DNA from: Alphaproteobacteria bacterium
Lineage (GTDB): Bacteria; Pseudomonadota; Alphaproteobacteria; Sphingomonadales; Sphingomonadaceae
Length of the DNA stretch: 64,000 nt
Direction of reading: 5' to 3'
Assembly: GCA_019232625.1 (NCBI GenBank)
Contig: JAFANP010000052.1
Location: 1-64,000 of the forward strand
The notes under the pieces are model-generated. The model had not been told where the DNA came from, made no database searches, and worked only from the letters and a program-made list of their open reading frames with translations. Made by a program: the position numbers and the translations under genes. Shown piece by piece: positions 20,097 to 20,566 of this stretch (positions within the stretch are counted from its first letter, which is position 1; each line of letters starts with the position of its first letter).

Positions 20097-20286
20097 CCTC
20101 TTCCTTCCGCTCCCGACGGAGCATCGTGACAAAGCCGGGTCGCGCCGACGGTTCCCGCTACGACGGGCCGCGGCGCCCTACGCCCTCCGCGCGGCGGCGG
20201 CAAGCCGGCGGCCGCTCGCGCGGGAGGCGGGCGCAGGCGCGCGCCTTGCGCTTTCGCGCGAGGCGATTTTGGGGTATAGGAGTCGC

Positions 20287-20363
20287 GGGGACGGGAGATA
20301 GTCGCCTTCCAGGGCAGCTGTCGCGAAACGCTCCGGAAAAAAATCCGGGGCGTTTCGTTTTTT
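20287..20363 (+). ncRNA. Candidate small RNA 1 ending in an intrinsic terminator
   Basis: Terminator with no upstream plus-strand gene; weak TTTCGC-N17-TATAGG promoter at 20252-20280. 5' end is inferred. Confidence 0.45.
20324..20363 (+). terminator. Rho-independent terminator, 14-bp stem, A6 loop, T6 tract
   Basis: CGAAACGCTCCGGA-AAAAAA-TCCGGGGCGTTTCG-TTTTTT. Confidence 0.85.
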
Positions 20364-20365
20364 CG

Positions 20366-20390
20366 GGAACCCCGCCGGGGGGTCGGCGTT
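20366..20390 (+). promoter_or_regulatory. EcfG-type general stress promoter GGAAC-N16-CGTT
   Basis: GGAAC 20366-20370, CGTT 20387-20390. Confidence 0.7.
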
Positions 20391-20395
20391 CTGCC

Positions 20396-20479
20396 TGTAC
20401 CCCACAGCGACCGTCAGCTCCCCCCTCCCCCCTCCCCGCTGACGGACGCAGAGCCCCGGCCTTAGTGCCGGGGCTTTTT
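20396..20479 (+). ncRNA. Candidate stress-regulated sRNA with C-rich loop hairpin (GsrN-like architecture)
   Basis: CCGTCAGC-[TCCCCCCTCCCCCCTCCCC]-GCTGACGG hairpin (20411-20445), then terminator hairpin, preceded by an EcfG-type promoter. 5' end is inferred. Confidence 0.7.
20453..20479 (+). terminator. Rho-independent terminator
   Basis: GCCCCGGC-CTTAGT-GCCGGGGC-TTTTT. Confidence 0.92.
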
Positions 20480-20566
20480 CTTTGTGGCCGGGTCTTTGAT
20501 CGCCCGCTTCCCTGGCGCGTGCGGGGCGCATAAGAGCGCTTCGACAGTCCCTGGTTGGAGCGACCC

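Follow-up and report, generated by a model that had tools for sequence, protein, structure and literature searches.

Does the short element between the genes at 20366-20479 of the window (the whole stretch of 64,000 nucleotides that was analysed) encode a small RNA of the general stress response, and, if so, is this RNA the counterpart of GsrN? GsrN of Caulobacter depends on EcfG, binds G-rich RNA via six loop cytosines, is processed to a stable 5' isoform and protects from peroxide; katG is its proven target (PMC5869019). The PhyR-NepR switch sets EcfG free; the consensus for EcfG in sphingomonads is GGAAC-N16-CGTT, and TGTT also occurs in functional sphingomonad EcfG promoters (PMC7083833, PMC6599016). 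From a promoter of this kind, a hairpin with a C-rich loop and a terminator, the earlier note had proposed a functional analogue or ortholog of GsrN. The element, designated RNA 'B' here, was compared among 26 genomes of the genus of the window (presumably Allosphingosinicella in the GTDB sense), including the genome of the window itself (G000).

Anatomy and conservation of RNA 'B'

The promoter, stem, loop and terminator described in the earlier note were all found again to the base. The EcfG-type promoter GGAAC-N16-CGTT (20366..20390, + strand) fits the published sphingomonad consensus. The predicted transcript of about 86 nt (20397..20482, +) would start a few nucleotides after CGTT and end at the T-run. 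It contains a stem-loop, GCG.CCGTCAGC / GCTGACGG.CGC (20407..20449, +), which is supported by folding and by pair changes. Its arms CCGTCAGC (20411-20418, +) and GCTGACGG (20438-20445, +) are prolonged by GCG/CGC past one A-A mismatch and enclose the 19-nt C-rich loop TCCCCCCTCCCCCCTCCCC (20419..20437, +), the predicted pairing region. The intrinsic terminator (20450..20482, +) was recognized by sequence, folding and covariation, and has a T-run on the + strand only; direct reading of 20453-20479 gives GCCCCGGC-CTTAGT-GCCGGGGC-TTTTT. Folding of this strand yielded two adjoining hairpins, the second of which is the terminator, at -40.5 kcal/mol versus a mean of -22.3 kcal/mol for shuffled sequences (z -6.2). 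Neighbouring genes encode Kup (PF02705), a 67-aa protein without Pfam match and a glycine-zipper protein. None of the 4227 families of Rfam 15 matched the locus at its gathering threshold, and relaxed matches were far below threshold.

To follow RNA 'B' in the relatives, a DNA search of the 26 genomes was combined with a covariance model, R1, that was built from 10 seed sequences of the transcript with the promoter left out (R1 and the model R2 used below are home-made and their E-values are rough). With R1, ten genomes of the genus yielded 20 matches that exceeded 47 bits, and G005 a single one of 38.8 bits; above 38 bits RNA 'B' was present in 11 of the 26 genomes. No match above 38 bits was obtained in the remaining 15, among which fragmented MAGs may miss copies. 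RNA 'B' is thus a lineage-specific element. Copy number varied, with four matches above 47 bits in G014, three each in G020 and G023, two each in G001, G006 and G008, and one in the genome of the window.

Eighteen copies from the 11 genomes were aligned, 8 of them from outside the R1 seed. Upstream of all 18, no more than 3 nt from one offset, stands GGAACC-N15-NGTT, also in the 8 copies that R1 had not seen; its NGTT part reads CGTT in 14 copies, TGTT in three and AGTT in one. Standard pairing was kept in 97.2% of the pair cells (22-49% in slid controls) and 16 of 20 pairs, in both hairpins, had changed on both sides, against 4.7 in shuffles; this alignment was fitted to R1, its copies are related and belong to one genus, and the shuffles ignore kinship. 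A MAFFT alignment of the 10 seed sequences agrees, with 94.4% paired and 8 pairs showing double changes. The loop varies in length (about 8-20 nt) but remains nearly pure C, being C-rich in all 18 copies. Reading frames that cross RNA 'B' do exist; because the loop length differs between copies they are unlikely to be genes. Promoter, loop and terminator, whose conservation in related genomes the earlier note asked for, are kept within the 11 genomes that carry RNA 'B'. Such a pattern marks out an RNA whose stem and C-rich loop are both under constraint, and not a coding sequence; the window does contain a genuine gene for a small regulatory RNA that has been conserved in evolution.

Two explanations would deny a role to the transcript. 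The element might have been assembled by chance from a promoter-like motif and terminators between genes. The motif by itself is indeed near chance frequency in this GC-rich genome, where GGAAC-N16-CGTT was found 34 times and the reversed pattern 28 times. It is therefore uninformative by itself and conservation is the decisive evidence: every part is kept in register in the 18 copies. Moreover, the composite of promoter and C-rich run occurred once in the window and in 0 of 60 first-order shuffles. A chance origin is thus the least credible of all explanations weighed here. Alternatively, the element could act chiefly as DNA, its G-rich template strand, which reads GGGGAGGGGGGAGGGGGG, forming a quadruplex. 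Such a structure does not require a conserved stem, a terminator or an EcfG promoter with compensatory changes, and several copies have a loop that consists of C without interruption. A DNA quadruplex is consequently very improbable, if marginally less so than chance.

In a wider survey of 251 genomes of the family, R1 matched 186, but this tally was discarded: only two of 30 fetched loci (that of the window and L033) had the promoter in register, nearly all matches being ordinary GC-rich terminators. A separate observation is L217 3770-3855 (-) in G155, a C-loop hairpin with terminator about 1.2 kb from NepR that scored 38.8 bits with R1 and has an EcfG-like promoter farther upstream and an additional 5' hairpin.

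C-loop sRNAs of the general-stress locus

Tien et al. reported that BLASTn matches of GsrN were limited to Caulobacteraceae, and proposed homologues elsewhere from an EcfG site together with proximity to the GSR locus (ecfG/nepR/phyR) (PMC5869019). NepR was found in 25 of the 26 genomes of the genus, that of the window included; there it lies on contig C28 and RNA 'B' on contig C15. A survey was centred on NepR in 84 regions; 12 of them came from the genus of the window, and the others were mostly single representatives of their genera. In 31 of these regions a C-loop hairpin came after an EcfG promoter, as against 2 with the promoter reversed; a few of the 31 (e.g. L160) resemble chance. This indicates that the EcfG regulon of the family repeatedly includes C-loop RNAs. 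Several such hairpins are located within a few kb of NepR, beside genes that encode a HisKA_2 kinase, PhyR and a sigma factor according to Pfam.

The commonest type, referred to as the GSR-locus sRNA, combines the core GGATAGYGACCTTTTGCCCCCC...GCTCTCGCTRTCC with a terminator hairpin whose loop is the second C-rich one. The 22-nt core was detected in 25 of the 26 genomes of the genus, essentially in single copy (G015 has one further core match with 3 mismatches), the exception being an incomplete genome. In its alignment 14 of 22 pairs showed compensatory changes, and no Rfam family matches this RNA. In the majority of the genomes sampled from the genus it lies close to the genes for the HisKA_2 kinase, PhyR, NepR and EcfG. 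In the genome of the window it was not found at the NepR locus and is located on C66, at C66:4347-4455 (L244 = C66:4322-4455), with its own EcfG promoter at C66:4322 and the core at C66:4356-4377. Model R2 of this RNA matched 25 of the NepR-centred regions with rough E-values below 1e-9, including 15 genera besides that of the window. Over 396 genomes of the class it matched only sphingomonads, apart from one weak match without EcfG promoter, a negative result that is weak because only nine candidates per genome were scored. Applied to the RNA 'B' loci, R2 gave 22.7 bits for the window, 21.7 bits for L113 and no match for four others, as against about 70-115 bits for clear members.

These results bear on the orthology of RNA 'B' and GsrN. 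An EcfG promoter, a C-rich 5' loop, a terminator and a similar size would fit a true ortholog, and in C. crescentus, too, gsrN lies away from the GSR locus (PMC5869019). Against this, a different EcfG C-loop sRNA is nearly universal in the genus, is present in the same genome, and occupies the GSR locus in the majority of the genomes sampled from the genus as well as in 15 other genera; RNA 'B' scores far below clear members with R2, lies off the GSR locus, is missing from over half of the genus and is duplicated in other members. That RNA 'B' is the GsrN ortholog of the lineage is therefore very unlikely, though slightly less so than a DNA quadruplex. By the locus criterion of Tien et al. (PMC5869019), the sphingomonad counterpart of GsrN would be the GSR-locus RNA and not RNA 'B'; to judge from its sequence and position, this RNA is probably the better counterpart and a new RNA family. 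Of the two alternatives in the earlier note, the analogue is the most likely, in view of the conserved EcfG promoter, C-loop hairpin and terminator, whereas the ortholog is unsupported.

Other C-loop elements were noticed as well. A third EcfG-promoter type, TGTCACCGCCGAGACCCCCCTCCCGTCC, adjoins phyR (PhyR by Pfam) in L091 (4857, +) and was also seen in L171 (9733), L181 (1941), L051 and L056. This type occurs in five other sphingomonad genera. In L090 (4370-4466, -; G057:C12) an EcfG-promoter RNA with two C-rich hairpin loops is situated away from the GSR locus and matches the GSR-locus model weakly (34 bits). L258 (1501-1602, +), from another alphaproteobacterial family (G394), is RNA-like and has two C-rich loops without an EcfG promoter. 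A family survey for promoter plus C-run was mildly enriched, with 14 genomes versus about 6 in the control, and served as a source of leads only.

The upstream tandem RNA 'A'

A second small RNA, RNA 'A' (20287..20361, +), which is absent from the account of the locus in the earlier note, is arranged in tandem upstream of RNA 'B' and conserved in 9 genomes. It begins with GGGGACGGGAGA..., continues into a hairpin (about 20297-20322, +) and an intrinsic terminator hairpin (about 20323-20358, +), and then a T-run, the terminator ending in TTCGTTTT. Its unpaired G-rich 5' end GGGGACGGGA (20287-20296, +) is nearly invariant. The aligned upstream sequences point to a candidate -10 element, TATAGG (20275..20280, +); most of the nine copies have a sequence resembling TATA or TAAAAG there, with no clear -35. 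RNA 'A' has no Rfam match and outside the genus its core was no commoner than the control.

In the nine genomes RNA 'A' is found 78-199 bp upstream of RNA 'B'. Kup flanks the pair in G000 and G018 only; G001, G006 and G008 share other flanks, as do G014 and G020, and within the stretches compared the flanks in G015 and those in G023 have no equivalent in any other genome. This implies that the pair has remained linked in a minimum of three and a maximum of five different gene contexts. Diverged copies of RNA 'A' also precede RNA 'B' paralogues in G020 and G023.

An arrangement of this kind could be a two-RNA cassette in which RNA 'A', from a housekeeping-type promoter, would be a sponge that titrates the C-loop of RNA 'B' or of the GSR-locus RNA and so sets a threshold for the stress sRNA. 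The linkage in nine genomes, the paralogous pairs and the nearly invariant G-rich end speak for it, as does a predicted A:B duplex of -14 to -19.5 kcal/mol. However, 7-29% of shuffled RNA 'A' 5' ends do as well, so that G-richness by itself explains most of the pairing; several RNA 'B' copies have no recognizable RNA 'A', and near neighbours can remain linked without function. RNAalifold, moreover, favours an alternative 5' hairpin in RNA 'A' that would hide the G-rich end. The cassette, which would add to the stand-alone reading of RNA 'B' and not replace it, is a possibility to which we give odds of somewhat better than one in four, and RNA 'A' may plausibly, if tentatively, be regarded as a sponge or antagonist. 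Within 20287-20322 two mutually exclusive 5' hairpins can be drawn, pairing positions 1-6 with 15-20 or 11-17 with 30-36; they might act as a switch between a hidden and an accessible G-rich end.

Proposed role and relation to known systems

Taken together, RNA 'B' is best explained as a stand-alone, trans-acting general-stress sRNA that would be transcribed by EcfG and pair through its C-loop with G-rich mRNA sites by a GsrN-like mechanism. It would be one more RNA, specific to its lineage, in a group of sphingomonad EcfG-promoter C-loop sRNAs. A probability of about 0.75 is assigned to this reading. From what can be read in the sequences (the gene architecture, its conservation, the covarying fold and the presence of NepR in the genome) we infer the following for transcription, EcfG dependence, base pairing and targets. 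Once let go by the anti-sigma factor NepR, EcfG would transcribe RNA 'B' from GGAAC-N16-CGTT; the transcript would begin a few bases ahead of TACCCC and stop at the intrinsic terminator after about 86 nt. The first hairpin would display the C-rich loop, which could pair in several mRNAs with G-rich stretches of the ribosome-binding site or the 5' leader. As with GsrN, pairing would alter the translation or stability of the targets, in a direction that is not predictable.

By their sequences, sphingomonads do carry EcfG-promoter C-loop sRNAs, one type of which is positioned at the general-stress locus in many genera, in contrast to the Erythrobacter litoralis outgroup of the GsrN survey, which was without an apparent gsrN-like gene (PMC5869019). 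These genes are likely a post-transcriptional arm of the sphingomonad stress response; the main texts of two papers on the sphingomonad EcfG regulon (PMC7083833, PMC6599016) do not mention sRNAs. It is conceivable, at about one chance in four, that they form an unrecognized network of EcfG-controlled C-loop sRNAs, composed of the core GSR-locus RNA and lineage-specific extras. The Allosphingosinicella extra would then come with the G-rich sponge RNA 'A' as an sRNA/anti-sRNA cassette that duplicates as a unit. The tandem arrangement of RNA 'A' and RNA 'B' offers a specific sponge hypothesis.

The cuckoo RNAs CcsR1-4 are characterized by a CCUCCUCCC loop motif. Like RNA 'B' they are stress sRNAs in several homologous copies; in Rhodobacter sphaeroides they are processed by RNase E from the ccaF1 (DUF1127) operon, which has an RpoHI/RpoHII promoter (PMC10253847). 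RNA 'B', unlike these, is equipped with an EcfG promoter and a terminator of its own, and no DUF1127 gene with which it could be co-transcribed was present among its scanned neighbours. SuhB/mmgR (Rfam RF00519), represented by SuhB of Sphingopyxis granuli, is likewise a short sphingomonad sRNA with a terminator; its expression follows the growth rate (PMC6563040), and RF00519 scored 13.2 bits at the window locus against a threshold of 41. The GSR-locus sRNA shares with RNA 'B' the EcfG promoter, C-rich hairpin loops, an intrinsic terminator and the genomes in which it occurs. It differs in its sequence, its two C-rich loops, its near-universal presence in the genus and its frequent position at the GSR locus, and the cross-match between the models is weak.

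The comparison with GsrN of Caulobacter crescentus (PMC5869019) relies on its described features. Both RNAs have an EcfG (SigT)-type promoter directly upstream and a general stress context, and RNA 'B' resembles GsrN, which is about 100 nt long with an unpaired C-rich loop in a hairpin near the 5' end, in size and layout. They differ in the loop, which has six tandem C in GsrN and is longer and variable in RNA 'B', and in the position off the GSR locus, the paralogues in some genomes and the tandem RNA 'A' upstream. In addition, the katG leaders of 11 genomes contained no G-run of at least five near the katG starts that could match the loop, so that katG, the proven target of GsrN, is probably not a target of RNA 'B' as well. 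As far as these features allow a judgement, RNA 'B' is probably GsrN-like in mechanism yet a separate, lineage-specific gene.
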